Shown: positions 1,058 to 35,539 of the stretch, one piece after another
How positions within the stretch are numbered: the stretch's first letter is position 1
Layout: every line of letters starts with the position of its first letter
Source: Syntrophomonadaceae bacterium
Lineage (GTDB): Bacteria > Bacillota > Dethiobacteria > DTU022 > PWGO01
Assembly (NCBI GenBank): GCA_003554525.1
Contig: PWGO01000160.1
Span: forward strand, 1 to 35,562
Direction: 5' to 3'
DNA length: 35,562 nt
Translations under genes and position numbers: made by a program
The notes under the pieces: generated by a model
Databases searched by the model: none
Told to the model about the DNA's origin: nothing
Seen by the model: only the letters and a program-made list of their open reading frames with translations

Positions 1058-1080
1058 GGATTCTGACCAAAATTGTCGAA
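1058..1080 (+). promoter_or_regulatory. GGATT-N11-TGTCGAA motif (copy 1), Spo0A-box-like
   Basis: GGATT (1058-1062), 11 bases, then TGTCGAA (1074-1080), ending 83 bases before the bactofilin start. TGTCGAA preceded by T matches the known Spo0A box. The same two parts with the same spacing recur upstream of the genes ending at 23919 and 35439, and with one extra base upstream of 6752. A possible sigma-A promoter (TTGACA then GATACT, 16-base gap) follows it at about 1094-1121. Confidence 0.6.
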
Positions 1081-1163
1081 CTAGTGCGTTAAGTTGACAA
1101 GCTGCTTTAGATCGTGATACTTTTAGTTCAATCGAGTAAAATCCTATCTGTAGAGGTGCGTTT

Positions 1164-2360
1164 ATGCTCCAAAAAAAAAATAGAGGTATGGGTAAGACAG
1201 TAGATACTGTCGTGGGTAATAATACCAGAATTACCGGGAGTTTTTTTGCCACAGGAGCGGTTAGGATTGATGGAACAGTGCAGTCTGAGAACGGTAGTTA
1301 TGAAGACATAGAAATATCTACTTCTGAAGAACTGATTGTAGGAGAAAAGGGAGAGATATATGCAAATACCCGGGGGAAAAAAATAATTGTAGCTGGAAAA
1401 GTATTTGGGACCCTGGAATGCTCTGAATGCCTGGAATTATTATCTACCGGACAGGTAATAGGTACGGTAAAAACCAAGAGGATTTATGTGGAAAGCGGGG
1501 CTGTGTTTGAAGGTTATTGCAGCATGAGTGAAACTGGCGACAGCACCCGGGAAGAGATCGAAGAAGTCGAAGAACAGTCTGCAGTTCCCGAGGAAGATAC
1601 TTCCGGGCATGAGCAATACGAGCCGGTAGAAGAGGTGTTAAACCGGGAAGAAAGGCTGGAAAGCGATGCAGCTTATACTACAGACACGGAAATAAAAATA
1701 GATATAGAAATAGAAAATGAGATATTTGCTAAAGAAGTTGAAGAAGCTGAAGAAGCTGAAGAAGCTAAAGAAGAAGAGGAATCTGCAGTCCGTGGGGAGC
1801 AGTCCAAGGAGGGTGAGGAGTTAGAGGCACAGGAAACCCCATCTCTTTATTCAGGGGAGGGCGACCTGGTGCAGGAGGGGGAAAATCACCGGGAGCAGGA
1901 AATAGAATTGGAAAGTAGTGCCGGGGAGGAACAAAAAAATGAAGACCCGGTGCAGGAAATAAAGCTACAGGAAGAGAAACACTTACAGGAAGAACAAAAA
2001 AGGAGCAATTTTGTACAGGAATATAAACCTGAAGATTCTAAATCTGAACTGGAGATAGAAGAAAAAGAAACAGAAGATACAAATGGAAATCCGGATATAG
2101 ACCACGACGAAACCAAAAAGCTTTTTCTTGCAGAATTCCAGTTTAACGGCGATTTGGAAATAGAAAAATGTCCAAACGGGAAGGTCCCGGTTAAAAGCAA
2201 GTACAGGCCCAAGAAAAAATTTAGCGAAGCATATTTTAAAAAATCGGAATGTAAAGAATGCGAACTTAAGTACAACTGCCTGGTAAGGGAACACAAAAAA
2301 GACATGGTTTTGCGGATTCCCAAACAATTTATCCGGCAGGTCCAGAAGCCATTGTCTTAG
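1164..2360 (+). CDS. Bactofilin with long acidic tail and C-terminal Cys motif
   Basis: Residues 8-125 are a bactofilin (DUF583) domain: TVVGNNTRITGSFF, then VRIDGTVQ, repeated short beta-helix rungs with IVAGKVFGTLEC, and ending near VFEGYCSM. Bactofilins polymerise without nucleotide into membrane-associated filaments. Most family members are short (roughly 100-200 residues); this one has 398. Residues 130-315 are an unusually Glu-rich, low-complexity linker. The last 64 residues are basic and carry C336, C363, C366 and C372 (C-x26-C-x2-C-x5-C). That pattern resembles the cysteine segment of IS1182-type transposases (CPxGK, then FS, CxxC and C). ATG 1164 follows GAGGTG at seven bases; ATG 1188 is a weaker alternative. 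An actin-like gene lies 67 bases downstream, probably in the same transcript. Bactofilin assignment is strong; the tail's role is unknown. Confidence 0.85.
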   Translation: MLQKKNRGMGKTVDTVVGNNTRITGSFFATGAVRIDGTVQSENGSYEDIEISTSEELIVGEKGEIYANTRGKKIIVAGKVFGTLECSECLELLSTGQVIGTVKTKRIYVESGAVFEGYCSMSETGDSTREEIEEVEEQSAVPEEDTSGHEQYEPVEEVLNREERLESDAAYTTDTEIKIDIEIENEIFAKEVEEAEEAEEAKEEEESAVRGEQSKEGEELEAQETPSLYSGEGDLVQEGENHREQEIELESSAGEEQKNEDPVQEIKLQEEKHLQEEQKRSNFVQEYKPEDSKSELEIEEKETEDTNGNPDIDHDETKKLFLAEFQFNGDLEIEKCPNGKVPVKSKYRPKKKFSEAYFKKSECKECELKYNCLVREHKKDMVLRIPKQFIRQVQKPLS

Positions 2361-2427
2361 CTGAAGGGTCAGGTTTTTTTTTGGTTTTTAATAATTATAT
2401 TTTTTGGAAAGGGGGTTTGCTTTAGAA

Positions 2428-3567
2428 ATGGAGCAGTGGGATTTGCGGGGAACTGAGGGACCTGATGATATATCAGAAGCTCCCGCCCAAGAAAACAGCG
2501 AACAGGCGGAAGAACAAGTAGAAAAACAAGTAGAAAAACTGGGCAAAGAGGAAGAACAGCAGTCTTCTGTAAGAAATGTCGGGGTAGACCTTGGCTACGG
2601 TTATGTCAAGTTTTTAGACGGTGAAAAAGAATACATGTTCCCCAGTATAGTAGGCTCAGGAGATGACATTCAATATAGAAGCGAAATGTTCCTGGAACCG
2701 GATCTGCTTAAAAACTTGCATATAGAAATTGGAAAGGAAACTTTTTTTGTAGGTGACCTGGCTATAAGGCAGAGTGAGATAGCCTCCAGGTCTTTAGATC
2801 AGGACAGGTCTAAAGACAAAAACTCGAAGGTTCTCATGTTAACTGTTTTAAGCCTTTTAACCAGTAAAGAAGATCAGCAGTTTAATCTGGTCACAGGATT
2901 GCCCACCAACTACTACGGGGCTTACAAAGATGACTGGAGAAACTCTCTTCTGGGAAGTTATAAAACAAACATATGGAAAGATGGGAAGTTAAAAGAATGC
3001 TCTTTTCAAATTAAAAACGCCAGGATCGTACCCCAGCCTTTTGGCACCTTGTTTAATCTGTTGCTTAACCATGAGGGTGAGGTAGTAGATCAAGAGCTCT
3101 CGAAAGAAATGGTGGGTATTGTGGATATTGGTTTCAAAACTACGGATATGGCTGTAGCTAACCATACCGAGTTTATTGACAGGTTGAGCTTTTCTACGGT
3201 TACGGCCTTAAGTACCATTTATCGCCTGGTAGGTGAAAGGCTTCGCAGGGAGTACAAAATAGATAAGGAAGACCATCACCTGGATGATTGCATTAGCAGT
3301 AGAACTATAAAAATTGCCGGTGAAGAACATGATATTTCTTCCTGGGTTGACAGCGCATTCAGGATGGTTGCCGGTAAAATTGCTACGGAGATAGAATCCA
3401 GGTGGGATTTCAAGCAGTTTGACAGGATACTGCTTACCGGTGGAGGAGGGGAAGCGTTGAGCCCCTATATAAAAAACAGCTTTCCCAACATGGTACTGGT
3501 TGAAGATGCGCAGGTGGCTAACGTAAAAGGGTATCAAAAGCTTGCTTGTAAAATTTTTGCGGAATAA
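2428..3567 (+). CDS. ParM/StbA-like actin-family ATPase with acidic N-terminal extension
   Basis: An actin-fold ATPase of the ParM/Alp type. It has phosphate-1 loop VGVDLGYGYVK (about residues 52-61 from the chosen start), GLPTNYY typical of the Alp N-terminal domain, phosphate-2 loop VGIVDIGFKTTD (about 230-240) and adenosine motif LLTGGGGEAL (about 335-344). The first 45 residues are an extra Glu/Gln-rich segment repeating EEQVEKQVEK, similar in character to the acidic tail of the bactofilin encoded just upstream. ATG 2428 is preferred: AAGGGGG ends 12 bases before it, while the open frame's earlier TTG at 2404 has no ribosome binding site. ParM proteins normally segregate plasmids, but no centromere-like repeats or adaptor gene are seen. 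Pairing with a bactofilin suggests a chromosomal cytoskeletal role (inference). Confidence 0.8.
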   Translation: MEQWDLRGTEGPDDISEAPAQENSEQAEEQVEKQVEKLGKEEEQQSSVRNVGVDLGYGYVKFLDGEKEYMFPSIVGSGDDIQYRSEMFLEPDLLKNLHIEIGKETFFVGDLAIRQSEIASRSLDQDRSKDKNSKVLMLTVLSLLTSKEDQQFNLVTGLPTNYYGAYKDDWRNSLLGSYKTNIWKDGKLKECSFQIKNARIVPQPFGTLFNLLLNHEGEVVDQELSKEMVGIVDIGFKTTDMAVANHTEFIDRLSFSTVTALSTIYRLVGERLRREYKIDKEDHHLDDCISSRTIKIAGEEHDISSWVDSAFRMVAGKIATEIESRWDFKQFDRILLTGGGGEALSPYIKNSFPNMVLVEDAQVANVKGYQKLACKIFAE

Positions 3568-3601
3568 TTTTGACTACAGTTTATTTATAATATGGTTTTG
3601 C

Positions 3602-3632
3602 AAACCCCTGATTTCGGGGGTTTTTTGTTTTT
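3602..3632 (+). terminator. Rho-independent terminator after the actin-like gene
   Basis: AAACCCC pairs with GGGGTTT across a short loop and is followed by a T-rich run, 34 bases after the stop codon. It closes the bactofilin-actin unit. Confidence 0.85.
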
Positions 3633-3643
3633 TGACCACGTTT

Positions 3644-3672
3644 TTTAACTACTACATTTTAACTACTACATT
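3644..3672. repeat. Short tandem direct repeat TTTTAACTACTACAT
   Basis: Two adjacent copies of TTTTAACTACTACAT lie between the actin-gene terminator and the end of the opposing operon. The TAACTACT core resembles the ends of the interspersed elements at 15056, 12624 and 26803, so this may be a worn fragment of that family. Confidence 0.45.
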
Positions 3673-3754
3673 GGAAGTTGGAGCTGGTGTCAAGTGTGCA
3701 TAACCACCGGCCTGGAGGGGGCAAAAGAAACGAAAGTGAGGTTGTATAAATGGT

Positions 3755-5095
3755 TTAATTTCCGAAGCAGTTGGTGCAGGAAGTAGTTCCGAATTTTATA
3801 ATAGCTCCACAGTTACTGCATATTATACCAGTTCTTTCCGTTACGGGTTTGACCGGTGTCTTATCCGCGATTTCTTCAGGGCTTTTTGTTTCACGGTCTT
3901 CCCACTTAATAATTTTTTCTTTCTTTTCCAGTGGCTCAGGAGGTTTTAGTTGTTCCGGTAATGTTTCTTTACTTGATATTTCTTCTTTGTCTTCCCCTGA
4001 TGCGGCCGGGGGTTTGAGTTCCACGGCATCTTTAACCTCTGCTGTCCCGGCTTCAACTGAAATAATTCTTGTTTCTTTAATAAAACTATCCAGTTCAATT
4101 GACTGTGCGCGGCTGTATGTAAACCAGTACTCCAGGTTTTTCACCAGGTTGGCACCCAAATTTACCATTAAGCTGTTTTCTTCAACTTTTACCGCTTCAT
4201 AGAAAAGATTTTCCAGGGTGATTTCATTAAAAAACCTTGAACTGGTTTTCCCGGTTTCAGCTGGTTCAGCTGGTTCAGCTTCTTCTGTTTTTTTGGTTTT
4301 ATCCCGGAGCTCTTTTATGGCTGCCACTTCTTCTTTTTGGAAAACATCTTTTTCATCTTCATCTGTCTCTTCACTTGTTTTGGCGTTTATGCTGTCGTTT
4401 GCCGTAAAGGCTAAAGGTTCTGCAGGTGGATCTCCTGTTTTAGTTGAATTGATAGACCCGGTCGGGTTATTTACCGGGGTGGGTCGGGCAGGAGTGGAAT
4501 TGCTGCGCAGTATTTCTGCGGTTTCTTTTAATTCAACAGGTTGTGTGAGAGTTTCTTTAGCAACCGTGTTTTCGGGGTTTTGTATTTCCAGATTAGCACT
4601 GCGGGTGTAAGTTACAGTTTCTGTACTGCGCCTGTCTATCACCTGTATGGTATCCCTGGGATAATTATGTAATTTAATAAACATTATTACTAACAAATAA
4701 AAAAACGCGGCCCAGAATATAACCGGATATAGCCAGTCGTAATCTCCCAGGTATGGTACTATCAGGCCCCTGTAAGCTATGTAAGCAAGAACCACGGATA
4801 TAAGGTATACCAGGTATTTAAATAGCAAGCCTGAACGGGGCATTGCATCTGTAGACAGTATGTTGTTTTTTTCAATAACTTCACCTGTTTTACACAACAA
4901 ATCAATTAAGATGATTAGTATTACAGCTGTTACCAGCTGGTAAAGGTTAAACCGGAACGGCAGATCTATCCGGGCCAGATCATGGAAAAAAAGTACGGCT
5001 GTTCCCTGGGCCAAAAGCAATAAAATAATAGCCGAACTGATTTTAACTATGTAAGATCTTACTTGCATTTCACTGTTTTTAAGGTTTGTATTCAT
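3755..5095 (-). CDS. Four-TM membrane protein with C-terminal zinc ribbon, function unknown
   Basis: I do not recognise a named family. Four hydrophobic segments lie at about residues 15-38, 50-68, 91-113 and 121-141. A long Thr/Glu/Pro-rich, probably disordered region follows (150-290). A short folded-looking block (about 290-350) contains ITLENLFYEAVKVEEN and LVKNLEYWFTY. The extreme C-terminus is a zinc ribbon, C426-x2-C429-x10-C440-x2-C443, in the form CSNCGAIIKFG. The upstream neighbour ends in nearly the same ribbon (CSNCGAPLKYG) with identical spacing. ATG 5095 follows AAAGGAAG. It is the last gene of a three-gene operon, 34 bases after the regulator gene, so a membrane partner of that regulator is a reasonable guess. 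Long Glu/Lys linkers make this and the bactofilin similar in style. Confidence 0.7.
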   Translation of the reverse strand: MNTNLKNSEMQVRSYIVKISSAIILLLLAQGTAVLFFHDLARIDLPFRFNLYQLVTAVILIILIDLLCKTGEVIEKNNILSTDAMPRSGLLFKYLVYLISVVLAYIAYRGLIVPYLGDYDWLYPVIFWAAFFYLLVIMFIKLHNYPRDTIQVIDRRSTETVTYTRSANLEIQNPENTVAKETLTQPVELKETAEILRSNSTPARPTPVNNPTGSINSTKTGDPPAEPLAFTANDSINAKTSEETDEDEKDVFQKEEVAAIKELRDKTKKTEEAEPAEPAETGKTSSRFFNEITLENLFYEAVKVEENSLMVNLGANLVKNLEYWFTYSRAQSIELDSFIKETRIISVEAGTAEVKDAVELKPPAASGEDKEEISSKETLPEQLKPPEPLEKKEKIIKWEDRETKSPEEIADKTPVKPVTERTGIICSNCGAIIKFGTTSCTNCFGN

Positions 5096-5129
5096 ATTTT
5101 CTTCCTTTCTGCTTCCCGGTCATGGGGTG

Positions 5130-6158: not shown

Positions 6159-6251
6159 CTGGGACCACCGTCCGTTTTTAATTATTTATAAAAAGAGCCC
6201 AATTAAATTATTTATAGCTGAAAAATTGTTTGTTAAAGCTGGAGGTTTGAA

Positions 6252-6752
6252 TTATTTAAGGAATCTTAATTTAACTTTATCACCTTCCCGGCTTAATACT
6301 ACCTCATCCCTGGTGATATTATCCAGCTCCCACTCATCCAGAATTAAATCGCCGGCAGAGCCGTGGATTATTTTATCATCAAGAATTAATACTGCGTAGT
6401 ATTTCCCCGGCTTTACTGTTACTCCGGTTATATCTTGTTTTATGTTTCCTTTAACCTTGCCGTCAACTACAACGCCAATCAGCTCCATTTCTTTTAATTG
6501 CTGCTTTTTATCGTGGTTATTGTGGTGATTTAGCTCTGCATTGTTGTCGTTTATATAATGGTTATTGTTCTCCGGGGAGGGCTTTTCTTCGTTATTCTCT
6601 TTATCTTCCGGGGGGGTGTATACCATTTCTGTAACCAGTCCGGTTATAATTAGAATTATCAGCATGGAAAAAAGCAGAATCATCCTTTTGTTTTCATCAA
6701 ATATTTTTTTAACTTTTTCCGGAATTATTTTATTAGAGCTGGTTTTGTTCAT
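6252..6752 (-). CDS. Single-pass anchored protein with GspC/PilP-like C-terminal domain
   Basis: Length 166 residues. A basic N-terminus is followed by one transmembrane helix (about residues 26-46, ILLFSMLIILIITGLVTEMV). Next comes an Asn/His-rich linker. The C-terminal domain reads MELIGVVVDGKVKG, then AVLILDDKIIHGSAGDLI and LDNITRDEVVLSREGDKVKLRF. That layout resembles the homology region of type II secretion GspC and type IV pilus PilP, where a short beta-fold contacts the outer secretion complex. No other secretion gene is nearby, so this is a fold resemblance only. The start at 6752 follows GGGAGGT; the longer open frame to 6806 lacks a ribosome binding site. First gene of the operon running to 3755, 93 bases before the regulator gene. 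Confidence 0.6.
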   Translation of the reverse strand: MNKTSSNKIIPEKVKKIFDENKRMILLFSMLIILIITGLVTEMVYTPPEDKENNEEKPSPENNNHYINDNNAELNHHNNHDKKQQLKEMELIGVVVDGKVKGNIKQDITGVTVKPGKYYAVLILDDKIIHGSAGDLILDEWELDNITRDEVVLSREGDKVKLRFLK

Positions 6753-6819
6753 TTTAGTACCTCCCGGGAAATGAACTATAAATATTGTCCAACTGTAACT
6801 AAACAACTGACTGATTTAC

Positions 6820-6843
6820 TTCGACAAAAACGTTCATAACTCC
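6820..6843 (-). promoter_or_regulatory. GGAGT-N12-TGTCGAA motif (copy 2), Spo0A-box-like
   Basis: On the minus strand GGAGT (6843-6839), 12 bases, then TGTCGAA (6826-6820), 67 bases before the start at 6752. This copy has one extra spacer base and GGAGT in place of GGATT, so it is the weakest of the four. Confidence 0.45.
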
Positions 6844-7146
6844 TTCATGGGTAACCATTTATTGTATTGCCCGGCTGCCTTCTATAGTGGAATTCCAGGG
6901 CTTATCCGGCAAAAAATCTGCTAAACTGGTAAACCAGGTAGCAATATAAAGGAGCTATTTACGGCATAAAAGAGCTTTTACCCGATTGACACAGGTATTT
7001 ATTTATGATAAAAACTAATAGAAAAGTTGTGTCAATATCAAAGAAATAAGCTGTGTCTTGCAATTTTTAAAAATGTAGTACAAATTCTGACCAGGTGTTA
7101 TCCTTATTTAGTTGATAATTTTTATTTTTTTTTTGTGCACAGGTTA

Positions 7147-7175
7147 TTGACACTTGAAATTATTTGACATATAGT
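7147..7175 (+). promoter_or_regulatory. Sigma-A promoter of codY
   Basis: TTGACA (7147-7152), 17 bases, TATAGT (7170-7175); five of six -10 bases and all -35 bases match consensus with ideal spacing, 48 bases before the start codon. No clear CodY box was seen. The remaining intergenic DNA from 6844 to 7146 is AT-rich and shows no gene. Confidence 0.75.
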
Positions 7176-7222
7176 TTGGAAAAGAATAAATATTTTAACT
7201 TTATCGAGAGGTGGAGATTAAC

Positions 7223-9105: not shown

Positions 9106-9106
9106 A

Positions 9107-15240: not shown

Positions 15241-16590
15241 CTATACCAGGTAAGAGATCTGGTTGCGTCCTTGCTCTTTAGCCGTGTAAAGGGCCCGGTC
15301 GCTTTTGTCAATTAATTCGGAGTAAGTAGTGTTCTGCTCTCCGGCGGGTATGGAAGAAACCCCCATGCTTATTGTAAGATTGCGGCCGGGTTGGGCTTCC
15401 TGCCCGGGGAAAGGATGGCTTTCGATAAGGTAGCGCAGCTTTTCTGCTACAATTAAACCTCCCTTGAGGTCTGTTTCGGTAAGAACAATTCCAAATTCTT
15501 CTCCACCGTAGCGGGCGGCCATATCTACAATACGGGTGTTCTGTTTTATAATCTGGCCTACAGTTTTAAGGACGGCATCTCCCTTGGGGTGCCCGTGGGT
15601 GTCATTGTAGTTTTTAAAGTGATCTATATCTCCAATAATCAGGGTAAGGGGATACTGGTACCTGCGGCAGCGGTTTATTTCCCGGTGGATAAATTCGTAG
15701 AAATATCCGTGGTTGTACAGGCCGGTGAGGCTGTCGGTAATGGCTCTTTCCACTGCCATCTGGTAGTCTTGTGTAATTTTTTCAAAGTGATATTTCTTGC
15801 GCAGGACAGATTTCATGCGTGCTTTTAGTTCATCGAAATTTACCGGCTTCTGTATGAAATCGTCTGCTCCTATTTCCAGTACTTTGAGCTTGCTTTCCGT
15901 GTCCGAAAGTCCGGATATTATAATTACTGGTACCTGCAGCAGTTCTTTTCTTTTCCTGATTTTCTGCAGCAATTTAATCCCGTCTATTTCCGGCAGCACC
16001 AGGTCTAAAAGAATTAAATCGGGGGTGTATTCCTGTATGTAATGGTAAGCTTCCTGCCCGTCGGCTGCACTCAGGACCTTGTATTCCATGGATAGAAGAA
16101 AATCATGCATTTTATGCCTTTCAATTTTATTATCCTCTACTACCAGGATAGTGGCGGTTTCTTCCTCCAGATTTTTTTTGTTTGGGGTAATAAACTCAAC
16201 TTCTTTTTCCTGGTAGAAAAAGAACAGGTTTTGCAGCCTTTTTATCCGGTAAAGTATCTCCGTTTTAGTGAGCGGGCGGTAAAGAAAGTCGTCGGGCTCG
16301 TAGGGCAGGGCGTTTACCATCTGTTTTTCCTCGCGTTCCAACAGGATTATAAAAGCGACATTGGGAGGGCGTACCAGGTAAGCTTCCGGGTCTTCCACCA
16401 GGTAGTCAATTATCACAATGTGGGGAGAAGCGTTGCTCATGGAAATTTCCCTGGCGTGCCTGAGGTTATCCGCTATTATGGTTTGGTAACCCTCTCCCTG
16501 CAGTATATTTTTCATGTACTGCCTTTCTACATTGTTACTGATTACAATGATGATCGTGATGCCGTTTTCGTTTTGATAAGAAGCATCCAT
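15241..16590 (-). CDS. Response regulator with two receiver domains and active-type GGDEF (diguanylate cyclase)
   Basis: Receiver 1 (about residues 10-120) is degenerate: it keeps a possible acceptor D62 in IVIIDYL but has lost the usual acidic pair near the N-terminus. Receiver 2 (147-265) is complete, with VVEDN, acceptor D196 in LILLDLVLPEIDG and K248 in IQKPV. The GGDEF domain (about 285-449) has DSLTGLYNHGYF, DIDHFKNYNDTHGH and RYGGEEF (362-366). An RIVD inhibitory site lies nine residues before the GGEEF motif, so product feedback is likely. The layout matches PleD-type regulators that make c-di-GMP when phosphorylated. ATG 16590 has only a weak GGGG site upstream. No kinase gene is adjacent, though the hybrid kinases in this window are candidates. 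Confidence 0.93.
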   Translation of the reverse strand: MDASYQNENGITIIIVISNNVERQYMKNILQGEGYQTIIADNLRHAREISMSNASPHIVIIDYLVEDPEAYLVRPPNVAFIILLEREEKQMVNALPYEPDDFLYRPLTKTEILYRIKRLQNLFFFYQEKEVEFITPNKKNLEEETATILVVEDNKIERHKMHDFLLSMEYKVLSAADGQEAYHYIQEYTPDLILLDLVLPEIDGIKLLQKIRKRKELLQVPVIIISGLSDTESKLKVLEIGADDFIQKPVNFDELKARMKSVLRKKYHFEKITQDYQMAVERAITDSLTGLYNHGYFYEFIHREINRCRRYQYPLTLIIGDIDHFKNYNDTHGHPKGDAVLKTVGQIIKQNTRIVDMAARYGGEEFGIVLTETDLKGGLIVAEKLRYLIESHPFPGQEAQPGRNLTISMGVSSIPAGEQNTTYSELIDKSDRALYTAKEQGRNQISYLV

Positions 16591-16898
16591 AAATGTAAAA
16601 CCCCATAACTTGTTTATTTTGTTTTTCTAATTAAACTACAGCATGGTTATTTTAATCGAGCCCGGTGTTAAAATATTTGACAGGAGCATTTTTATAATAT
16701 TATATATTATTTGACGTTTGGTTGGTTTTTTCCTTCTAGAACGGGCAATTCGTAGTAAATCAATTTTACCTGCCACCGGTTGGTGCATAAGTTTGAACTG
16801 GTTGCCCTTCAGAAAAAAGCCATAGAACCTTCCGGGTAAATAATCCGGCATAGTAATTTAAGATTTGAACTTACAAAGAGAGGGTGTATTGTTACCTG

Positions 16899-17775: not shown

Positions 17776-18980
17776 TTATTGGTAGACTATAACTTTGTTT
17801 CTACCGGATTCTTTGGCGGCATACAGTGCCCGGTCGGCCTGCCGGATCAGCTCCTGTGTTTCCAATATTTGCCCTGGGCGGGAAGCGGATATACCCGCGC
17901 TGATTTTTATTTTAAGTTTAAGTTCGCCGTGGTACATATTTTTTTGTTCCACTTTTTGCCGGATATTTTCTGCTGTTAGTTTGGCCTCTTCATACGATTT
18001 TTCCGCTGATCTCCCCTGCACGACTTGTTTCCGCTTCTACCAGCTTGCTTTTGTGCAGGTGGTTTGCAGGGCCGTACCTGGCCCACAGTTTAAGTTTTTT
18101 CCTGGATCGTTCGATTTTTTCCCTTTGAGTTTTTTGTTCTCGCGGAGGAAGATGCTCCAACTCCTGGAGCATGTTTAAAGTGCGGTAAAAATAATATTGA
18201 GAAAACGGGTATAGAGCCGCTATAGCGTCCAAATAATGCCGGGCCGATTTTTCATTTTCAGCAGCCTCGTTTGTGTTTCCGAAGAGATAACAGAGCATCA
18301 TTTTGTAGGTATAGGCCAAACATAACCCTACCCTGTCGTTTAGTTTTTGGTGCACGGGGAGCATTTTATTTTCGCTGTACGCAGTGCCGTCAAGGTGGGT
18401 GGGGTCTTTGGAATGTCCTGCCAGATTATGTACTATCTGCATAAGCAACAGGGCATAGTGGTAAGGCAGCCGTTGTTTGAATTTCGTTTATTAGAGCCGA
18501 TTTCCCTACCCCCGGTGCACCGGTAACCGCGGTAACTGCCGGTTTCCCCTGTTCCATCATTTGCTCGAATCCTAAGATTAGCTCATTCATTTCTTCTTCT
18601 CGCCCTATTAGTTTGTAAGGGAGATTAAATTTTAAAGAAACATCATTGCTGCCTAGCGGGAAAGGTAATACCGTGTTTTTTTCTTTCAACTGTTCTTTGC
18701 AGTGCTGCAGGTCCGCCATAACACCAAAGGCATTCTGGTAGCGTTCTTCGGCCATCTTGGATAACAGCTTCATTACCAGGTCGGAAAGCGGCCCGGGTAT
18801 GCTGCTGTTTACTTCGCATGGAAGGATCGGTTGTTTTGCAATATGGGAATGTATAATTTCCATAGGATCATCGGAGATAAATCTTCCAGAACCAAGGCTA
18901 TACAAAACCTTGTTAATATGAAGGAGGGTAAACATAAACACAAGTGCTGCATTATTGTATGTGTGGTTTGAGTCTATCAC
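17776..18980 (-). pseudogene. Decayed tandem copy of the kinase-ATPase-GGDEF gene
   Basis: Three frames on the minus strand match successive parts of the intact protein encoded at 18991-23919. 18426-18980 matches its residues about 203-345 (DPMEIIHSHIA, LSDLVMKLLSKMAEERYQ, TGAPGVGKSALINEI). 17990-18480 matches about 1045-1190 in the repeat region (GLYPFSLYYFYRTLN-like ALYPFSQYYFYRTLN, KLKLWARYGP). 17776-18021 matches the last 75 residues of GGDEF (LIRQADRALYAAKESGRN). Two internal deletions, both out of frame, removed about 700 and 380 codons, and the kinase N-lobe is missing. It begins 10 bases after the intact gene's stop, so it arose by tandem duplication. No GGEEF motif remains, so it cannot make c-di-GMP. 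Confidence 0.9.
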
Positions 18981-18990: not shown

Positions 18991-21900
18991 TTAACGATAG
19001 ATTTCTACCCTGTTTCTCCCTGTTTCTTTAGCCGTATAAAGGGCCCTGTCGGCTTGCCGGATTAGTTCTGTGGGTTCAATGGCCTGGTTCAGCCGGGTTG
19101 CGGTTAAGCCAATACTTATAGTGATATTTAACCTCTGGTTTTCGTGGTAAATGGTCTTATTTTCAACTTCCTTACGTATGGATTCTGCTATTTCTTTTGC
19201 TTCCGGGGGGGAGAATCCCGGGATAATTATAGTAAATTCTTCTCCCCCGTAACGGCATACCAGGTTTTTATCCGGGACTTGGTGTATAAGAATTTTGGCC
19301 AGTTCTTTTAAAACGGTGTCCCCGGCCTGATGCCCGTAAGTGTCGTTAACCGATTTAAAGTGATCTATATCCAGCATTAACAGGGTTACCACGTGCCTGC
19401 TGGTCCAGGCATTTTTTATCTCTTTTTCCAGGCAATAGTGGAAGTAGCGGTGGTTGATCAGGCCGGTAAGCCCGTCGCGCCGGGCCATCTCGAATAACTT
19501 GGCGTTTTCTATGGAAATAGCGGCCTGGGAAGACAGCACCTGCAGTAAAGCCAGGCGCTCGGGGGTAAAAACCCCGGTGGAAAGGTTGTTTTCCAGGTAG
19601 ACCACCCCGCTCATTTCGTTCTTCCTGCGGATGGGAGCACATAGTACCGATTTTATATTATTATCCCGGATATACGGGTCGGAAGCAAAACGCTCATCGG
19701 AGGGGGCATCGTCTAAGATTACGTTCTCCATGGTTTTGTAAACGTAAGATACTATATTAGTAGGCAGGTTATGGTAGGATTCAAAAGGCGTGGGTTGCAG
19801 AACCCGGACGCTGTTGTGGGTATCACTTTCTGCTTCCACGTACAGTTCTCCTTCTTCTTCAATAAAAATAATTCCACGCTCCGCCCCGGCGTTTTCAATG
19901 CCAATTTGCATCAAACTGCTTAATAGGCTGTCCATGGCAATTTCCCCGGAAACGGCCTGTAGCGACTTGATCACTGTCGTCATGTCCAGTTTCAGGTAAC
20001 TTTCTCCCGGGTTAGAAATAGTAGAAACAGAAAACAGGGTAGATAAACCGGGACCCTCGGTATCCCAGGAAGTTAATTCCTGGCCGTCCATTATTTCGTT
20101 CCAGTTTTCTTTAAGCTGTTCCACCTTAGAGGAGGCTCCCCACCGGGAGTAACACCGGCTAGCCCTGGAGATGTAGAAAGCAGCCAAATCGTGAAGGTTT
20201 CTTTCCCAGTAGTATAGCGCAGTTAATTCACAGGCCAGGGCTTCATCCTGCAAGAAGCCGTTTTTTTGGGCTCCCGAAATGGAATTATGGTATAAATCTT
20301 CCGCCTGGAGGTAATTTGATTGGGATTTTTGTATTTCCGCTTCTACCAGGTCGCTTTTGTGCTGGTGATTTTGTGGCCCGTGTTTGGCCCAAAGTCTTAG
20401 CTTTTTTTGAGAGCGCTCTATTTTCTTCCATTCTTCTTTCTTCTGCCGCGGGGGAAAGCTGTTTATTATCCTCAGTTTGTTTAAAGTGCGATAAAAGTAA
20501 TACAGGGAAAATGGGTAAAGCCCGGAAATACTATTAAGGTAGCGTCGGGCTAATTTTTCATTTTTGGCTGCTTCAGGGGTTTTTCCGAAAATGTAACAGA
20601 CCATCTGCTTGTAAATATAGGTGATAGCCAAACCGGCCATGTCGTTATACTTTTGATGCAAGGGTATCATTTCTTCTTCGTGGTAGCGGGGCCCGTTCAG
20701 TACCTGTGGTTCTTCCGGGCCGGTGGTCAGGTTGTATATTACCTGCAGAAGCATTAAAGCATAGTTTGAAGGGACCTGCTGGTTATACTTTATAAATACC
20801 TGGTAGTAAGAATCAATTTCTTCATACAGGTGGTTTAAATCTTTTCCCGAAGCAAAACCCTGGAGGGTTAACTGTACTGCCGAATAAGCGGCGTGTTCCA
20901 GGTCACCAAGTTCAAAGCCCTGGTAGTACACCTCCTCCAGTTTTTTGTAAGGGATTCGCAGGTGATCTCTCCAGTGTAAAGTCATGGCATTAACCATATA
21001 GTCCGTTTTTATTTCTTCAGCTTGCAGCTGTTTTTTTAATTGCAGGGCCAGGTCTCCAAAGCGAAACGCTTCTTGCAACCGGCTCATAGAGAAAAGCACT
21101 ACGGTATAGCAGGCCAGCCAGTAAGGGGTATGCACGTTTAATCCTGAGTTTATGGATAAACGGACCATCTTTAAGGTAAGAGTAGTAACCTCCCGGGTAT
21201 ATCCGCCCACGTAGAGAGCAAAAACAGCGTTGGTGGCAATCCTGATTGCAGCGATATGATAAGGGTCTTTCATCTTCGGAAGCTCCAGGATGTTTTGATT
21301 GCTTTTGCCCTGTAGTGCCTTTTGTGTCAGGTGCAGTTCCCAGGCAATTCTTGCCCCGGAAATTTTGCGAGGATGCTTTATGCCCAGGGAATCAAGCACA
21401 TTAAAGGTGTGGTTTGCCGCTTCTTGTAGCCTGCCCTGGAAATGGTATCCTTGAATTTGTACTTCGTAGACGTCAATACAATCCAGCTGGGAAACAGCGT
21501 TTTTTGTTACCACCCTGATGTAGTGATCCATATTGGAAAAATCGCCGTTGAGGTAAGCGGCGCGGGCTGCTTCAGTGTAGAGCTTCAAGGCCAGATCATA
21601 GTGTTGTTGCCAGCATGATTCCGGGTTAAGGAGGCTTATCCCGGTAACCAGGTATTCCAGTGAAGAAGAAAAGGCGGCCGAATCTCGCGCTTTTTCTCCG
21701 GCGATCAGGTTTAACCGGGCCAGCTCTTCCAATTTAAACTCTTCTTTTGTTTCCTCTATCTCCTCTCTTCCTGTATTAATCTGGTTTACTATGTAAAATA
21801 TTTTTTGGGAAAGCTCTTCCTTAGGCGTGCAGTTGTAAATATATCTTCCTATCCTGTAGTGCGTTTTCTTTTTGTCTTTTTCATCCATTTGTGAATAGGC

Positions 21901-23919
21901 TGCCTCCTGGATGCGGTCATGCAGGAAATAACACATATCTTTGTCAAAGTAGATAAGGCCGTCATCCAGGGCGGGATTCAAGTCCTGAAGGATAGGCTCT
22001 ATGGGTTTATCCATAATCACAGAAACAGTTTCCAGATCAAACCTGTTGCCCATACAGGCTCCTGCTTTAAGTGCTTCCCTGGTAGGTTCCGGAAATTCGA
22101 AAATTTTTCCGGACATTAGTTCCACAACGTTGTCGGTAACGTGCAGGTTTTGAATTTTATCCTCGTACCATATCCACCCTTTTACGGGATCCAGCTCCAG
22201 CAGATTCTTGTGATAAAGATTTTTTAAAAACTGGTTAACAAAAAAGGGATTACCCCTGGTTTTAGAATAAACCAGCTCGGTTAGTGAACTAACTGCTTCT
22301 TCTTCAAGCCGCAGGAAATCGGCAATAAGGTTATTTACTTTTTCCCTGGACAATGGCTGCAGGTCAAGCTTTTTTATTTCCATTTCGCTGGTTTCCAGCT
22401 GGTAAAGAGTGCGGACCAGGGGGTGGCTTTCTTCTACTTCGTTGTTGCGGTAAGCAAGCAGAAGCCAGAGGTGTCCTTTTTCCATGTTGGAAAGTAGTTT
22501 TTCCAGGAAAAGCAGGCTCGCCGTGTCCGCCCACTGCAGATCATCCAGGAAAAGCACCAGCGGATGTGAGTGTTCCGTAAATACCTTTATAAAATTTATA
22601 AACACATGGTTAAAGCGGTTACGGGCCGCTTCCGGGTCTAGCTCCGGTATTTCGGGCTGCGGCCCGATAATATATTCCAGTGTGGGTATTACCTCGGTAA
22701 TCACTTTTCCGCTGGAGCCCAGCACTTCTTGAATTTTAATTTTCCATGCCTCGGAATGCTCCCTGGGTTCAGCCAGGAGTTGGGATATTAGCCCCTTAAA
22801 AGCCTGGATCATTGCGTTGTAGGGTACATCTCGCCTGAATTGCTCATATTTGCCGGTGATGAAATATCCCCGGCTGGCGGTTACCGGTTTATAGATTTCG
22901 TTTATCAGGGCTGATTTCCCTACTCCCGGTTGGCCGGTTACTACCGTGGTAACCGGTTTCCCCTGCTCCATCATGCATTCAAAACCTTCCATAAGCCGAG
23001 AAATTTCTGTTTCGCGCCCTATAAGCTTATAAGGTATGTTGAACTTCAGGGATATATCTTTAGTTGCCAGCAAAAAATTATCTATGGCACCGTTGTTACT
23101 CAGCTGCTCTTTGCAGTATTGCAGGTCAGCCATGACACCGAAAGCGCTCTGGTATCGTTCTTCGGCCATTTTGGATAAAAGCTTCATTACCAGGTCGGAA
23201 AGAGGACGGGGAATCTCGGGGTTTATATCACGGGGAGGAACCGGTTGCCTGGCTATATGGGAATGGATGATTTCCATTGGATCCTGGGAATAAAAAGGAG
23301 TGGTGCCGGTTAGCAGCTGGTAAAAAGTAATCCCGAGGGCGTAGAGGTCGGTCCTGTAATCTATAGCCCGGTTTATGCGCCCGGTCTGTTCCGGTGCCAT
23401 ATACAGCAGAGTCCCGGAAATAACTTCAGGGTTGTAGATCTCTTCGTGTTCGTGAGTAATAAGGTGCGAAATGCCGAAGTCGGTGATTTTGCACTTGCTC
23501 CATTCTTTGCCAATCAGGATGTTAGCCGGTTTGATATCTTTATGTATTACCCCGCTTTTATGTAGTTTTCCCAGTGTTTCTGAAAGGCGGAGGGCTATAT
23601 CCAGAAAAGTTTCTGTACTTAATTCCTGGTTGTCTAAACATTCCTGTAAAGAAAGTGCGTTGAAATCTTCCAGCACCAGGGCTATGCTGTCTTCGTAGTT
23701 TATCAAATCATAGGTTTTAATAATACCTTCAATATCCAGGTCTTTAATAATTTCATATTCTTGCTTAAACCTTGCTATGTCTGAAGAAGAAGGGGAATGA
23801 GAACGCATAAGCTTGATTACCACCGGTTCGCCATCTTCAATTCTGTTAGCCCGGTAGATCATGGAATGCCTGGTGTCTTTTATTTTTTCCTTTATGGAAT
23901 AATTCCCTATGGTTTTCAT
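18991..23919 (-). CDS. Giant Ser/Thr kinase - AAA/STAND ATPase - helical repeat - GAF - GGDEF protein
   Basis: 1642 residues. Kinase domain 1-275: ATP lysine in VVIK (36), HKDIKPAN (D128), DFG (145-149) and GTLLYMAPEQ, all apparently active. ATPase 298-about 640: GQPGVGKSA (329-337) and Walker B LVLFLDDLQWAD (454-465), as in large STAND-type regulators. A long helical, probably TPR-like region spans about 700-1270. GAF (about 1300-1475) includes NIKSVLCAPIRR and GVVYLENN. GGDEF 1482-1642 has RYGGEEF with an intact active motif but PDKN where the RxxD inhibitory site would be, so it may lack product feedback. Similar kinase-ATPase-GAF proteins often end in a histidine kinase; here the output is c-di-GMP. 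ATG 23919 follows AAGGTGGT. Monocistronic before the duplication downstream. Confidence 0.93.
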   Translation of the reverse strand: MKTIGNYSIKEKIKDTRHSMIYRANRIEDGEPVVIKLMRSHSPSSSDIARFKQEYEIIKDLDIEGIIKTYDLINYEDSIALVLEDFNALSLQECLDNQELSTETFLDIALRLSETLGKLHKSGVIHKDIKPANILIGKEWSKCKITDFGISHLITHEHEEIYNPEVISGTLLYMAPEQTGRINRAIDYRTDLYALGITFYQLLTGTTPFYSQDPMEIIHSHIARQPVPPRDINPEIPRPLSDLVMKLLSKMAEERYQSAFGVMADLQYCKEQLSNNGAIDNFLLATKDISLKFNIPYKLIGRETEISRLMEGFECMMEQGKPVTTVVTGQPGVGKSALINEIYKPVTASRGYFITGKYEQFRRDVPYNAMIQAFKGLISQLLAEPREHSEAWKIKIQEVLGSSGKVITEVIPTLEYIIGPQPEIPELDPEAARNRFNHVFINFIKVFTEHSHPLVLFLDDLQWADTASLLFLEKLLSNMEKGHLWLLLAYRNNEVEESHPLVRTLYQLETSEMEIKKLDLQPLSREKVNNLIADFLRLEEEAVSSLTELVYSKTRGNPFFVNQFLKNLYHKNLLELDPVKGWIWYEDKIQNLHVTDNVVELMSGKIFEFPEPTREALKAGACMGNRFDLETVSVIMDKPIEPILQDLNPALDDGLIYFDKDMCYFLHDRIQEAAYSQMDEKDKKKTHYRIGRYIYNCTPKEELSQKIFYIVNQINTGREEIEETKEEFKLEELARLNLIAGEKARDSAAFSSSLEYLVTGISLLNPESCWQQHYDLALKLYTEAARAAYLNGDFSNMDHYIRVVTKNAVSQLDCIDVYEVQIQGYHFQGRLQEAANHTFNVLDSLGIKHPRKISGARIAWELHLTQKALQGKSNQNILELPKMKDPYHIAAIRIATNAVFALYVGGYTREVTTLTLKMVRLSINSGLNVHTPYWLACYTVVLFSMSRLQEAFRFGDLALQLKKQLQAEEIKTDYMVNAMTLHWRDHLRIPYKKLEEVYYQGFELGDLEHAAYSAVQLTLQGFASGKDLNHLYEEIDSYYQVFIKYNQQVPSNYALMLLQVIYNLTTGPEEPQVLNGPRYHEEEMIPLHQKYNDMAGLAITYIYKQMVCYIFGKTPEAAKNEKLARRYLNSISGLYPFSLYYFYRTLNKLRIINSFPPRQKKEEWKKIERSQKKLRLWAKHGPQNHQHKSDLVEAEIQKSQSNYLQAEDLYHNSISGAQKNGFLQDEALACELTALYYWERNLHDLAAFYISRASRCYSRWGASSKVEQLKENWNEIMDGQELTSWDTEGPGLSTLFSVSTISNPGESYLKLDMTTVIKSLQAVSGEIAMDSLLSSLMQIGIENAGAERGIIFIEEEGELYVEAESDTHNSVRVLQPTPFESYHNLPTNIVSYVYKTMENVILDDAPSDERFASDPYIRDNNIKSVLCAPIRRKNEMSGVVYLENNLSTGVFTPERLALLQVLSSQAAISIENAKLFEMARRDGLTGLINHRYFHYCLEKEIKNAWTSRHVVTLLMLDIDHFKSVNDTYGHQAGDTVLKELAKILIHQVPDKNLVCRYGGEEFTIIIPGFSPPEAKEIAESIRKEVENKTIYHENQRLNITISIGLTATRLNQAIEPTELIRQADRALYTAKETGRNRVEIYR

Positions 23920-23973
23920 TCGGCACCACCTTTCAAGCGGAGTTGGCTTATAAAGTATATGGTTAATTAAATA

Positions 23974-23996
23974 TTCGACATGAAAATTTAGAATCC
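23974..23996 (-). promoter_or_regulatory. GGATT-N11-TGTCGAA motif (copy 3), Spo0A-box-like
   Basis: On the minus strand GGATT (23996-23992), 11 bases, TGTCGAA (23980-23974), 54 bases before the start of the kinase-GGDEF gene. A TATACT lies downstream of it, placed so that the box would overlap its -35 region, as in some Spo0A-activated promoters. Confidence 0.6.
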
Positions 23997-24105
23997 TATG
24001 ATTTGTGCAAAATTTTATTTATTAAAAGGGGAGGGGGTGGTGACGTGCCCACTTTTTAAATTGCAATTATGGTTTAGCTGAAGAGGCCTTCTATTTATAA
24101 AACAT

Positions 24106-24168: not shown

Positions 24169-24394
24169 TTTACTTCTAAGGGAAGACCTGCTTTTAAGCG
24201 CTTTTTCACCATCACCTAAATATCGGCATTTATGCCATTATTCAACATCTATGCTTGTTATTTTCAATAATGATTTTTCAACAAGCTTTCAAAAAACAAT
24301 GTTGTATTATTTTCCACAAAAAGTATCAATTTTGAAGGAGATTAGATAAATTTATAGAAATTCATTATAGTAAAATAGTCATTAGGAGACAAAA

Positions 24395-24949
24395 ATGAGT
24401 GATAAGGTTGCAATTTTTATTGATGGTGGATACCTGGATAAAGTTCTTCAAAATGAGTTTAGTTATGCAAAAATAGATTATCAAAAGCTTGCCAGTTGGA
24501 TGAGTAATAATGTTTCTATATTTAGAACTTACTATTATAATTGCTTACCATATCAGAGTAATCCACCTACAAAAGAAGAAAGTGAGAGATTTTCTCGACG
24601 GCAAAAATTTCATCTTAGCTTAAATAAACTTCCTCATTTTGAAGTTAGAGAAGGGAAACTAGAATACCGTGGATATAGTGCTGATAATTCGCCAATTTTT
24701 GTTCAAAAACGGGTTGATATTTTGCTTGGCGTAGATATAGTACTATTATCTTCAAAGCAGCGAATCACTCATGCTAGTATATTCGCAGGTGATAGCGATT
24801 TTCTTCCAGCGATTGAAATCGCAAAAAACGAAGGAGTTCTGATTAATTTATTCCACAGCAAGATATATTTACCCCACGATGATTTATGGCAAGTCGCTGA
24901 TGATAGAATTGAAATTACAGAAGAAGTAATAAATAATATTTTGAGATAG
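24395..24949 (+). CDS. NYN-domain (LabA/DUF88-like) putative nuclease
   Basis: 184 residues with the acidic pattern of the NYN/PIN-like nuclease fold: VAIFIDGGYLDKVL (first Asp), then QKRVDILLGVDIVLLS and ASIFAGDSDFLPAIEIAKNE (GDSDF). The strand-terminal VLINLFHSK also fits. LabA/DUF88 proteins are metal-dependent RNases or RNA-binding proteins; no substrate can be told from sequence. ATG 24395 follows AGGAGA. Base composition is clearly more AT-rich than the flanking signalling genes. It sits between the two copies of the repeated promoter-like element, which suggests acquisition by transfer. No toxin-antitoxin partner is evident. Confidence 0.8.
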   Translation: MSDKVAIFIDGGYLDKVLQNEFSYAKIDYQKLASWMSNNVSIFRTYYYNCLPYQSNPPTKEESERFSRRQKFHLSLNKLPHFEVREGKLEYRGYSADNSPIFVQKRVDILLGVDIVLLSSKQRITHASIFAGDSDFLPAIEIAKNEGVLINLFHSKIYLPHDDLWQVADDRIEITEEVINNILR

Positions 24950-30430: not shown

Positions 30431-30460
30431 ATTGGAAACCAGGATAAAGAGCACATTTAT

Positions 30461-30488
30461 TTGGTGTGCCGGGTATAAATGTTATACT
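30461..30488 (+). promoter_or_regulatory. Candidate promoter of the larE-like gene
   Basis: TTGGTG (30461-30466), 16 bases, TATACT (30483-30488), 33 bases before the chosen start codon. Confidence 0.5.
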
Positions 30489-30521
30489 GGCTAATAACCA
30501 GGTTAACTGGAGGTGATACGG

Positions 30522-31364: not shown

Positions 31365-31421
31365 TAGCTTTACTTTAGCTTTTTTCAATATTAGCTTTTT
31401 TACTGGTTTGCCCGGATACGG

Positions 31422-31449
31422 TTGCTTGAATTATAGTAATAAGTATATT
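31422..31449 (+). promoter_or_regulatory. Candidate promoter of fabI
   Basis: TTGCTT (31422-31427), 16 bases, TATATT (31444-31449), 60 bases before the start codon. No FapR-like operator was recognised. Confidence 0.45.
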
Positions 31450-31509
31450 TTTTCTTTTTTTGCTATGGGGAAATAATATTGATTATGCGCATTAGAAAGG
31501 AGAACAGTC

Positions 31510-32286
31510 ATGAGCCACTCGTTACTGAAAGGTAAAAATATCTTAATTATGGGTGTTGCCAACAAAAGGAGCATTGCCTGGTCTATAGCAAGGGCTTATC
31601 ACCGGGCCGGGGCAAACCTGGTCTTTTCTTACCAGGATGAGCGTTACCGGGAAAAAGTCAAAAAACTGGTGGAGAGCGAAATACCCGATCCCCTCCTTTT
31701 ACCGTGCAACGTATCGGAAGAAAAAGAGATAGACTACTTGTTTGAGGGGATTAAAGAAAGCTGTGGTGTTTTGCACGGCGTGGTGCATAGTATTGCTTAT
31801 GCCAAAAAAGAAGAGTTGAGCGACCTCTATGTTAATACTTCCCGGGAAGGTTTCCGCCTGGCACACGAAGTCAGCGCTTATTCCCTGGTAGCGGTGGCCC
31901 GATGGGCTTATCCCCTCATGCGTGAAGGGGGCAGTATAGTTACTCTTACTTACCAGGGTTCTACCCGGCTGGTACCCAACTACAATGTCATGGGGGTGGC
32001 CAAGGCTGCCCTGGAAGCAAGCGTACGCTACCTGGCGGGCGACTTTGGCCCGATGGGAATAAGAGTAAACGCAGTATCTGCGGGCCCGGTGCGTACTGTT
32101 TCGGCCAAAGGGGTAAAGGATTTTAACCGGATAATAGAACTGGTGGAACAAAAATCTCCCCTGCGCCGTGCGGTAACCCCGGAGGAGATAGCGCAAGCTG
32201 CTTTGTTTTTATCCAGCGACCTTTCCAGCGGTATAACTGGTGAAGTTCTTTTCGTAGACGGGGGCTACCATTTGACAGGGATGTAG
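31510..32286 (+). CDS. fabI: Enoyl-ACP reductase (NADH), FabI type
   Basis: Catalyses the last reduction step of each fatty-acid elongation cycle and is the classic triclosan target. A Rossmann lead ILIMGVANKRSIAWSIARA is followed by VVHSIAYA, SAYSLVAVARWAYPLM, the catalytic Y-x6-K in YNVMGVAK, then YLAGDFGPMGIRVNAVSAGP and the terminal FVDGGYHLTG. These residues separate FabI from FabG. 258 residues is normal. ATG 31510 follows AAAGGAG. It is monocistronic, not within a fab cluster. Confidence 0.95.
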   Translation: MSHSLLKGKNILIMGVANKRSIAWSIARAYHRAGANLVFSYQDERYREKVKKLVESEIPDPLLLPCNVSEEKEIDYLFEGIKESCGVLHGVVHSIAYAKKEELSDLYVNTSREGFRLAHEVSAYSLVAVARWAYPLMREGGSIVTLTYQGSTRLVPNYNVMGVAKAALEASVRYLAGDFGPMGIRVNAVSAGPVRTVSAKGVKDFNRIIELVEQKSPLRRAVTPEEIAQAALFLSSDLSSGITGEVLFVDGGYHLTGM

Positions 32287-32382
32287 TATTTGTGGCAAAA
32301 AGTTTTAGATGCCAATTCTGGGGTCAGGCGTGTATAAAAGTAAACAGATCGTTTTTTTTGTGGGCTGCATCGTGACTTATGT

Positions 32383-35300
32383 TCAACCTTCTATCCTGTT
32401 TCTGCCGTTTGCTTTGGCTTTATACAGGTTTTTGTCTGCTTTTTTAACCATTTCTTCTACACTTTCTTCTCCCTCCCGGGTAGCGATTCCTATACTGACT
32501 GTAAATTTCAAATCACCAAATTGCTTGCTTTCTAATACCTGAGCTTCAACGGTTTTTCTAATCCTTTCTGCGGCAAGATTTGCTGTTTTGTTGTCAGCAT
32601 CTGTTAGAGCTACCAGGAATTCTTCTCCCCCATAGCGTCCCACTATATCCATTCTTCTAATTAAATTAAATATGGTATCTGCTATGATTTTTAATATTTT
32701 GTCTCCCGTATCATGGCCGTAGGTATCATTAAAATTTTTGAAGTGGTCTATATCCACCATTAACAGCGAAAAAGATCGATTTTCTTTTTTCGTTTTTTCA
32801 AACACTGTTTCGGTCAATTCAAATAAATGCCTTCTATTGTTCAACCCGGTTAATCCATCAATATCAGCAAGCTTTTTGGCTTCTCCCAGCTTGGCCGCAT
32901 TCTCTATTGACTGCGTTACTGCATGTTTAAGTGAAACCAGGGTTCTTACCCTTGCCATTAATTCAGCTTTTTCAAACGGCTTGGTAAGATAATCGTTTGC
33001 TCCTATATCTAAACCGTAAGCTATATCATGTGGTTGATTTTTTGCTGTTAACATTAATACGGGTAACTCATGACTCGATTTATTTTTTCTTATTTGCTTG
33101 CACACCTCGTACCCGGATATTTTGGGCAGCATGATATCCAAAAGTACCAGATCATAATCAGCTTTTTCTGTTTTCTCTAACGCTTCAATCCCGTTTGATG
33201 CAGTATCCACGTTGTAATTTTGAATTTCCAGGTGGTTGGTCAGCACTTCCACATTTACTCTTTCATCGTCTACCACTAAAATATTAACGTTGGATCTTTC
33301 TTTTTGTAACCCGTTGGTATAAATATCTCCACCGGTATCGTAATGGGTCTTATTATTTGCTGCTGTTGCCGCCGCAGTTTCTTCTTTGCTTTCTTCCTGT
33401 ATATCTTTATTTGCCGTTTCTGCTACAATTTTGTCTTTTGTTTTAGGGGGTTTTTCCGGAGCCACCGGGAGGGTAAAATAAAATTTTGAACCTTTGCCAA
33501 CTTCTGATTCCAACCAGATACTGCCCCCGTGCAGTTCAATTAATCTCTTGGTAATGCTGAGCCCAAGGCCGGTTCCTCCAAATTCCCTGGAGGTAGAAGC
33601 GTCTACCTGTTCAAAAGACTTGAATATATCTTCGAATTTATCTTCCGGAATCCCTACTCCCGTGTCTTCAACACAGAACTGAACGTTTTTATCTTTTTTG
33701 ACCGCATTTATTTTTACGTACCCATCCTGGGTAAATTTAACTGCATTCCCAATCAAATTGTACAATATCTGTTGAAACCTGTTTTCGTCCACATAAACAT
33801 GAGGCAGATTATCCGGAATTTCATTTTTAATTTCCAGGTCTTTATTGTTAACCGTGGAACTCACTACGGTCAGGACTACTTCTACCACAGGTTTTATTTC
33901 CACACTTTTAACTTGCAGGGCTATATCTTGATTTTTTACTTTTGAAAAATCAAGGATGTCATTTATTAAACTGGCCAGCCGCCTTCCGCTGGAGGCTATC
34001 ATTTCCAGGTTTTTAACTGTTTTTGAGGGTAACTTTCCTGTTACCCCGCCAATCAAAGATTCACTTAAACCGATTATCCCGTTTATGGGAGTCCGCAATT
34101 CGTGGGAAATATTTGCAATAAATTCATCCTTTACCCTGTCCAGGGCAAGCAGTCTTTCCGATAATTTTTCATTGTCTTTAAACGCTATAGAGAAGCGTTG
34201 GGCGATTACCAATGATTGAAAAAGTAAAAACATGAAGGTTGCAAACACCATAACTTTAGGAGTGTTTATAATACCTTCCGCACTTAAAACATCGGCTACT
34301 ACGCCAAGGAATAAGAACAGGCCCCCGGAGGCGCAAAGCACCGCCCCCTTGAGTTTTTCTTTTACTGCTTTAAATATAATGTATAAATATACTATTCCCG
34401 AAACTACAATTAAAACATTAGCCGTAGAAGAAAAATAGCTGTTTAAAAGGTGATACTGGTAATGTTCTAAAAATGCACCTGAAAACAGTAAAGCACCTAT
34501 AGATATTATCAATGCTGTTACCACTTTGATAAAAGATCTATTAAATACTTGCCTGAATATGGTATACAAAAAACCACCGAAAAAGACGGGGATTAACACT
34601 ATGCCTGAATACCAGATTATGCGAAACGATAAAAACAAGAAGTTATCAATCAACCAGGCTACTAAAATGTTATGCCCTATATTGCTTAAATTGTGGCCGT
34701 AATTGGAAGTAACCTGAAGGAGAATAACCGAAAAACAAAAGCCGCTGAAATACAGGGTGGATTTGTCTTCTTTCCGGAAGATATACAGCGCCAGGTGATA
34801 AAGAATCATAAAAAACAAAATGCCTATAAAAATGGCATCAATCATGGAATACAGGTGGTACTTTTCCACTATATTGCTTTTTTTGTCTATGGATAGACTT
34901 TCCGTTTGGTCTGCCACCTGTAGGTTAAAACTGGTGGTTTCCCTTCCTGGAACGGAAATCATTTTTTGGCCATAAAAGTTATCCCTGTGAGTATCGGCAT
35001 GCAGGTTGCCGTTTTCAGATATTAATTGCCGTTCATTCCACAATTTATAGCTTCCATAAAGATTATCAAATACTTTAACCGCCATGGCTTTTTCTTCAGG
35101 TAAAATAACTTTTAGCCTGTAAGTAGCATGCTCGTGGTCAGGTGCAAACTGTGCACTTCTGCCTGGGGTTTTTAGAGTGGAATATTCTTTTTGGGTATCA
35201 GGAATTGTGTCATCAGGGGTTAGCAGTTTGCCTTCATAATATTCCCACTCTCCAAGCAATTCCACTTCTCCATGTTTATCAAAATCCCATTCAGACAAGT

Positions 35301-35439
35301 CAAGGATTCCTTTTTCTGCCACTGGGGGGTCCCTTTGTTCATTTTCAAAACAACCGGCCAACAAAATTGACAAGGTTATGGTGAGTATAATAAATGCTAC
35401 CATATTTGATTTTTTAGTTATACTACTTATTAATTTCAT
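32383..35439 (-). CDS. Lipoprotein-type 7TM hybrid histidine kinase with receiver and GGDEF output
   Basis: 1018 residues. The signal ends in lipobox LLAGC (Cys30), so the N-terminus is probably lipid-anchored outside. Residues 45-180 resemble the 7TMR-DISM extracellular jelly-roll domain. Seven or so helices span about 197-415. HisKA has H446 in [15 protein letters not shown], and HATPase spans about 545-660 with GTGLGLSI. Receiver 717-840 has VVDDE and acceptor D768 in [14 protein letters not shown] 860-1018 has [22 protein letters not shown] (GGEEF 937-941) and an RRMD inhibitory site nine residues before. It thus couples an outside signal to c-di-GMP within one chain. ATG 35439 has GAGG upstream. 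Both lipidation and seven helices in one protein is unusual. Confidence 0.93.
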
Positions 35440-35516
35440 ACGCGTACCTCTTTCTGTAAACCCGGGGTGGTTAACAACAGGAAAAACTGTTTGCCATTTC
35501 AGTATTTTTGGTTAAA

Positions 35517-35539
35517 TTCGACAAATTTTATTAAAATCC
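35517..35539 (-). promoter_or_regulatory. GGATT-N11-TGTCGAA motif (copy 4), Spo0A-box-like
   Basis: On the minus strand GGATT (35539-35535), 11 bases, TGTCGAA (35523-35517), 77 bases before the hybrid-kinase start. Preceded by T, so TTGTCGAA matches the Spo0A box. The window ends 23 bases beyond with a repeated TTTTCTGATC. Confidence 0.6.

Follow-up and report, generated by a model that had tools for sequence, protein, structure and literature searches.

Predicted SigH promoters with -10 regions that coincide with Spo0A boxes upstream of bactofilin and GGDEF genes in a Syntrophomonadaceae contig

The window, i.e., the whole stretch of 35,562 nucleotides analysed here, is the entire contig C173 of an assembly of 2,305,574 bases (2.3 Mb) in 190 contigs, all of which was covered by the exact-string searches. 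It carries a bactofilin gene (1164..2360, + strand; 398 aa; Pfam PF04519) followed by an actin-like gene (about 2404-3567), a set of undescribed membrane-protein/PAS-HTH/zinc-ribbon genes, a Ser/Thr kinase-AAA-GAF-GGDEF gene (18991..23919, - strand; 1642 aa), and a 7TMR-DISM histidine kinase-receiver-GGDEF gene (32383..35439, - strand; 1018 aa), the last two assigned with Pfam. A third GGDEF gene (15241-16590) and an NYN-domain gene (24395-24949) are also present, as is a short GGDEF fragment (17776-18021; profile positions 93-161), which is probably left over from a disrupted diguanylate cyclase gene. The small membrane-type protein (6252-6752) heading the PAS-HTH/zinc-ribbon genes showed no Pfam match and no relatives in 60 related genomes, and only partial relatives of the bactofilin were found in 60 related genomes. 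Therefore, spo0A was used instead for the cross-species footprint.

GGATT-N11-TGTCGAA occurs exactly at 1058-1080 (+), 23974-23996 (-), and 35517-35539 (-), and a fourth copy, GGAGT-N12-TGTCGAA, lies at 6820-6843 (-). The gaps between the copies and the called start codons were 83 (1058), 54 (23974), 77 (35517), and 67 (6820) bases. The four copies were thus confirmed with the coordinates, strands, spacing, and start distance of 54-83 bases given in the preliminary description. The window contains TGTCGAA four times, each time within a motif copy. When the neighbouring bases are included, GGATT-N11-TGTCGAA reads as AGGA-N17-GAA(T), and the N12 in place of N11 at 6820 gives an 18-base spacer, the second normal value of SigH promoters. 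GGATT would lie within a -35 element (A-GGA-TT) and TGTCGAA would hold the -10 element (GAA[T]), the two being separated by the usual 17-18 bases.

The predicted SigH promoters are located at 1057..1081 (+) for the bactofilin unit (AGGA-N17-GAAC, -10 region TGTCGAAC; PWM 18.2), 6819..6844 (-) for the membrane-protein/PAS-HTH/zinc-ribbon genes (AGGA-N18-GAAG; PWM 24.3, the second-highest value in the genome sample), 23973..23997 (-) for the kinase-AAA-GAF-GGDEF gene (AGGA-N17-GAAT; PWM 16.7), and 35516..35540 (-) for the 7TMR-DISM hybrid kinase-GGDEF gene (AAGGGA, where the register decides whether GAAT lies at spacer 17 or 18; PWM 22.7), the PWM threshold being 12.1. The copies therefore combine an AGGA-type -35 with a GAAT-type -10 element, which is GAAC or GAAG in two of the four, and the spacers are 17, 17, and 18 bases in the three copies other than that at 35517. 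The identity of GGATT among three copies exceeds what the SigH consensus requires. Two further SigH-like promoters were found in the window. One at 24331..24360 (+; approximate, derived from its 34-base distance to the start codon) precedes the NYN-domain gene, divergent from the kinase gene, and has TATA in place of TGTC (AGGA-N17-GAAA; PWM 18.2). A weaker one at 16709..16740 (-; approximate, derived from a 118-base distance to the start codon) precedes the third GGDEF gene (-10 CGTCAAAT; PWM 16.1). Additionally, a well-matched candidate promoter of the sigma-A type, in which 17-18 bases separate TTGACA from ATACTT/TACTTT, is present at 1094-1123, its TTGACA lying 13 bases past the TGTCGAA of the bactofilin copy; hence, bactofilin may have two promoters.

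The exact GGATT-N11-TGTCGAA string was found three times in the whole assembly, each time inside the window. TGTCGAA itself occurs 119 times, compared with 431 times for the reversed string, and 115 sites could be assigned to coding (67) or non-coding (48) DNA. In the non-coding set, AGGA preceded GAA at a spacer of 17 bases nine times and of 18 bases seven times, i.e., 16 occurrences against 0.6 expected as estimated from the other spacers (P ~1e-18), and the remaining spacers from 4 to 29 gave seven in total. No AGGA peak at spacers 17/18 was observed at the 67 coding sites. Irrespective of TGTC, AGGA-Nk-GAAT in the sampled upstream DNA occurred nine times at k = 17 and 18, and 12 times at the other 14 spacers together. 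These results indicate that the repeated motif is real and not a product of chance. Of the motif as initially described, the exact string is not genome-wide, whereas the looser AGGA-N17/18-GAA(T) form is, its AGGA half standing beside 16 of the 48 non-coding TGTCGAA sites and forming no peak in coding DNA.

Unsupervised matrix refinement on 459 upstream regions converged on RNAGGAWTT...TGT(C/A)GAA(T/A) with 70 matches. The matrix passed 58 of 486 sampled genes (ca. 12%), compared with 2 in shuffled upstream regions and 15 on the reverse strand. The sample consisted of stretches of the assembly with genes called by a simple purpose-made caller, and the matrix was trained partly on stretches later scored. 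The spacer test, dnaG-rpoD, and spo0A of other species are free of this circularity, contig C61 lying outside the training set. The SigH consensus and spacing were taken from a Sporomusa set (PMC12456013).

A profile search of the assembly revealed one sigH above the curated cut-off (TIGR02859; 358.6 bits vs. 294.8) and one spo0A. SigH (Spo0H) is the sigma factor of the transition phase, starvation, and sporulation in many spore-formers, and spo0A, spoIIA-sigF, and dnaG-rpoD are its textbook targets. The highest matrix match was located upstream of spo0A, and matches were also obtained upstream of spoIIAA-spoIIAB-sigF and dnaG-rpoD (these two identified by their protein sequences and by matches to sigma factors), so that the known targets spo0A, spoIIAA, and dnaG-rpoD all carry the predicted promoter. 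Further matches were located upstream of parB and GGDEF-HD, chemotaxis, Spo0E-like, metabolic, glutamate dehydrogenase, and trpE-like genes. As judged from these predicted promoters, the regulon is a large SigH regulon comprising ca. 12% of the sampled genes and extending beyond signalling and the cytoskeleton. The preliminary description had reported no motif before housekeeping genes, which fails genome-wide given the matches at dnaG-rpoD, parB, glutamate dehydrogenase, and trpE-like genes. It had also proposed a shared signalling and cytoskeletal regulon. The promoter matches do indicate a regulon, but a large SigH regulon and not a small dedicated set, and its c-di-GMP part holds statistically in this genome.

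The same promoter form was conserved among relatives. AGGA-N17/18-GAAT with TGTC gave 557 matches in 100 related genomes, with at least one match in 99 of them, while spacers 21/22 gave 51 matches and the reversed pattern 49; the right spacer was thus ca. 10-fold commoner. Among named Firmicutes records, 60 of 75 spo0A upstream regions passed the matrix (1 of 75 when shuffled), with a spacer peak at 17/18. The nearest named Spo0A match was that of Dethiobacter (70%), and two Bacillota bins matched at 71%; the organism is therefore probably a relative of Dethiobacter. In Sporomusa sphaeroides, SigH promoters with AGGA and GAAT separated by 17-18 nt were found upstream of 322 mapped transcription starts (16.1%) and were likened by the authors to those of Bacillus subtilis and Clostridioides difficile (PMC12456013). 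The promoters predicted here resemble those of Bacillus, Clostridioides, and Sporomusa in the -35 AGGA, the -10 GAAT, the 17-18-base spacer, the textbook targets, and a broad regulon of ca. 12-16% (PMC12456013). However, they differ in a clear extra TGT(C/A) before GAA and in having bactofilin and many GGDEF genes among their targets.

Taken together, the four copies are very probably promoters for RNA polymerase containing SigH. From its sequence, the motif appears as an ordinary kind of promoter and no new bipartite operator. Of the two options initially offered, a dedicated promoter form is thus favoured in the shape of SigH, and a paired binding site is unsupported. GAAC at 1058 and GAAG at 6820 speak against the SigH promoters, since GAAT is preferred. 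The possible second promoter of bactofilin, the close GGATT identity, and the clustering of the TGTC form in the window, with 4 of the genome's 22 sites in 1.5% of its length (P ~3e-4, post hoc), point the same way. An ECF-type promoter was also considered and ruled out, as the spacing is too short for its consensus. Active SigH would drive expression of the bactofilin, membrane/zinc-ribbon, kinase-GGDEF, and hybrid-kinase-GGDEF units, probably at stationary-phase entry or starvation as suggested by known SigH biology. A large SigH regulon is thereby suggested for this uncultured lineage, whose Spo0A is closest, among named records, to that of Dethiobacter.

Since the -10 region reads TGTCGAA, which is a perfect 0A box (PMC3485338), Spo0A~P may also occupy it and tune the same promoters. 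The right half had been equated with the Spo0A box; this holds for the string, which here serves as the predicted promoter -10. We consider it possible, though somewhat doubtful, that the -10 element of SigH promoters was additionally selected as a 0A box, with Spo0A~P fine-tuning a subset of SigH genes. A comparable overlap has been footprinted at B. subtilis spo0A, between box 0A4 and the -10 of the SigH-dependent promoter Ps, but its effect is described as near negligible (PMC12090719), and by analogy the Spo0A~P layer may matter little here. The overlap in this genome differs in that it occurs at some twenty promoters, mostly other than that of spo0A. In C. difficile, a perfect 0A box lies at -75 of spo0A, and the DNA upstream of this gene is strongly bound by Spo0A (PMC3485338). 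TGTC outnumbers TGTA 31 to 6 at spo0A of relatives, and TGT and C co-occur beyond independence in related genomes (odds ratio of ca. 3), although this ratio was obtained among the matches listed. In the own genome, the coupling was not significant (TGTC at 5 of 55 SigH-like promoters, 2.5 expected; P 0.31). A further extension, in which the lineage uses an extended -10 TGT(C/A)GAAT, the choice of C or A decides Spo0A~P binding, and SigH and Spo0A jointly place many c-di-GMP enzymes and bactofilin under sporulation-entry control, seems unlikely.

By contrast, TGTCGAA could be a plain Spo0A operator with Spo0A~P as the main regulator and GGATT as a coincidence or partner site. In C. difficile, 102 perfect TGTCGAA matches were scanned to predict Spo0A targets, and the core in the window is the same perfect box (PMC3485338). 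The genome encodes Spo0A and appears to contain real boxes. At an abrB-like gene (L073:1584-1615, contig C100), TGTCGAAA lies directly past TATAAT and lacks AGGA. Just past the TATAAT of abrB is the classical position of Spo0A repression; this site is likely a genuine repression site and was taken as a positive control from within the genome. The abrB-like site and the window copies share the identical 7-base core, but the window copies have a SigH -35 at 17/18 and, unlike the abrB box, are not independent of a SigH -10. Sites in this genome that are likely true operators have no AGGA at 17/18, and their next base tends to be A. Indeed, the 48 non-coding sites comprise 22 with and 26 without the -35; the next base was T in 14 of 22 with it but in 1 of 26 without it (P ~1e-5), and A in 14 of 26 without it. 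This contrast divides TGTCGAA into two populations, and the window copies, whose next bases are C, G, T, and T, go with the promoter group. By-eye inspection of the four sites for tandem 0A boxes at 10-base spacing gave a weak match at 1058 only. A plain operator is highly improbable. Chance likeness within one window would fit the absence of the full exact motif elsewhere in the genome and its choice after the fact, but it is refuted by the spacer test, the related-genome counts, and the textbook targets, and its probability is negligible. Another sequence arrangement was observed at L038:14509-14560 (contig C165), where TATAAT is followed by the 0A-like boxes TTTGTCCAA and TTTTGTCGAAA before a gene whose 222-aa product begins like a lipoprotein; this gene is likely another Spo0A-controlled gene. 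TGTCGAA matches used for Spo0A-target prediction in Firmicutes can thus be SigH -10 elements, and AGGA at 17-18 bases before GAA tells the two apart.

Among 19 GGDEF genes whose start could be read, 11 had a SigH-like promoter. Outside the window, 8 of 14 GGDEF genes having 80 or more intergenic bases carried such a promoter, compared with 50 of 257 for all genes (19%; P 0.003); with at least 150 bases, the values were 8 of 12 and 42 of 185 (P 0.002). After removal of genes in the matrix-training stretches, 5 of 9 remained (P 0.04). Eleven relatives showed the same direction (7 of 16 vs. 4 of 21), without significance (P 0.10). The link between c-di-GMP and the SigH regulon thus has moderate support; a link to the cytoskeleton depends on a single bactofilin gene. 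The GGDEF enrichment is the one modestly new point, the promoters themselves being of the ordinary SigH kind, and such over-representation would tie second-messenger synthesis to the sporulation decision. Contig C98 (L260, L261) encodes two more GGDEF proteins of 1611-1614 aa, near the size of the 1642-aa kinase-GGDEF protein of the window, and a SigH-like promoter is present at only one of these two genes.
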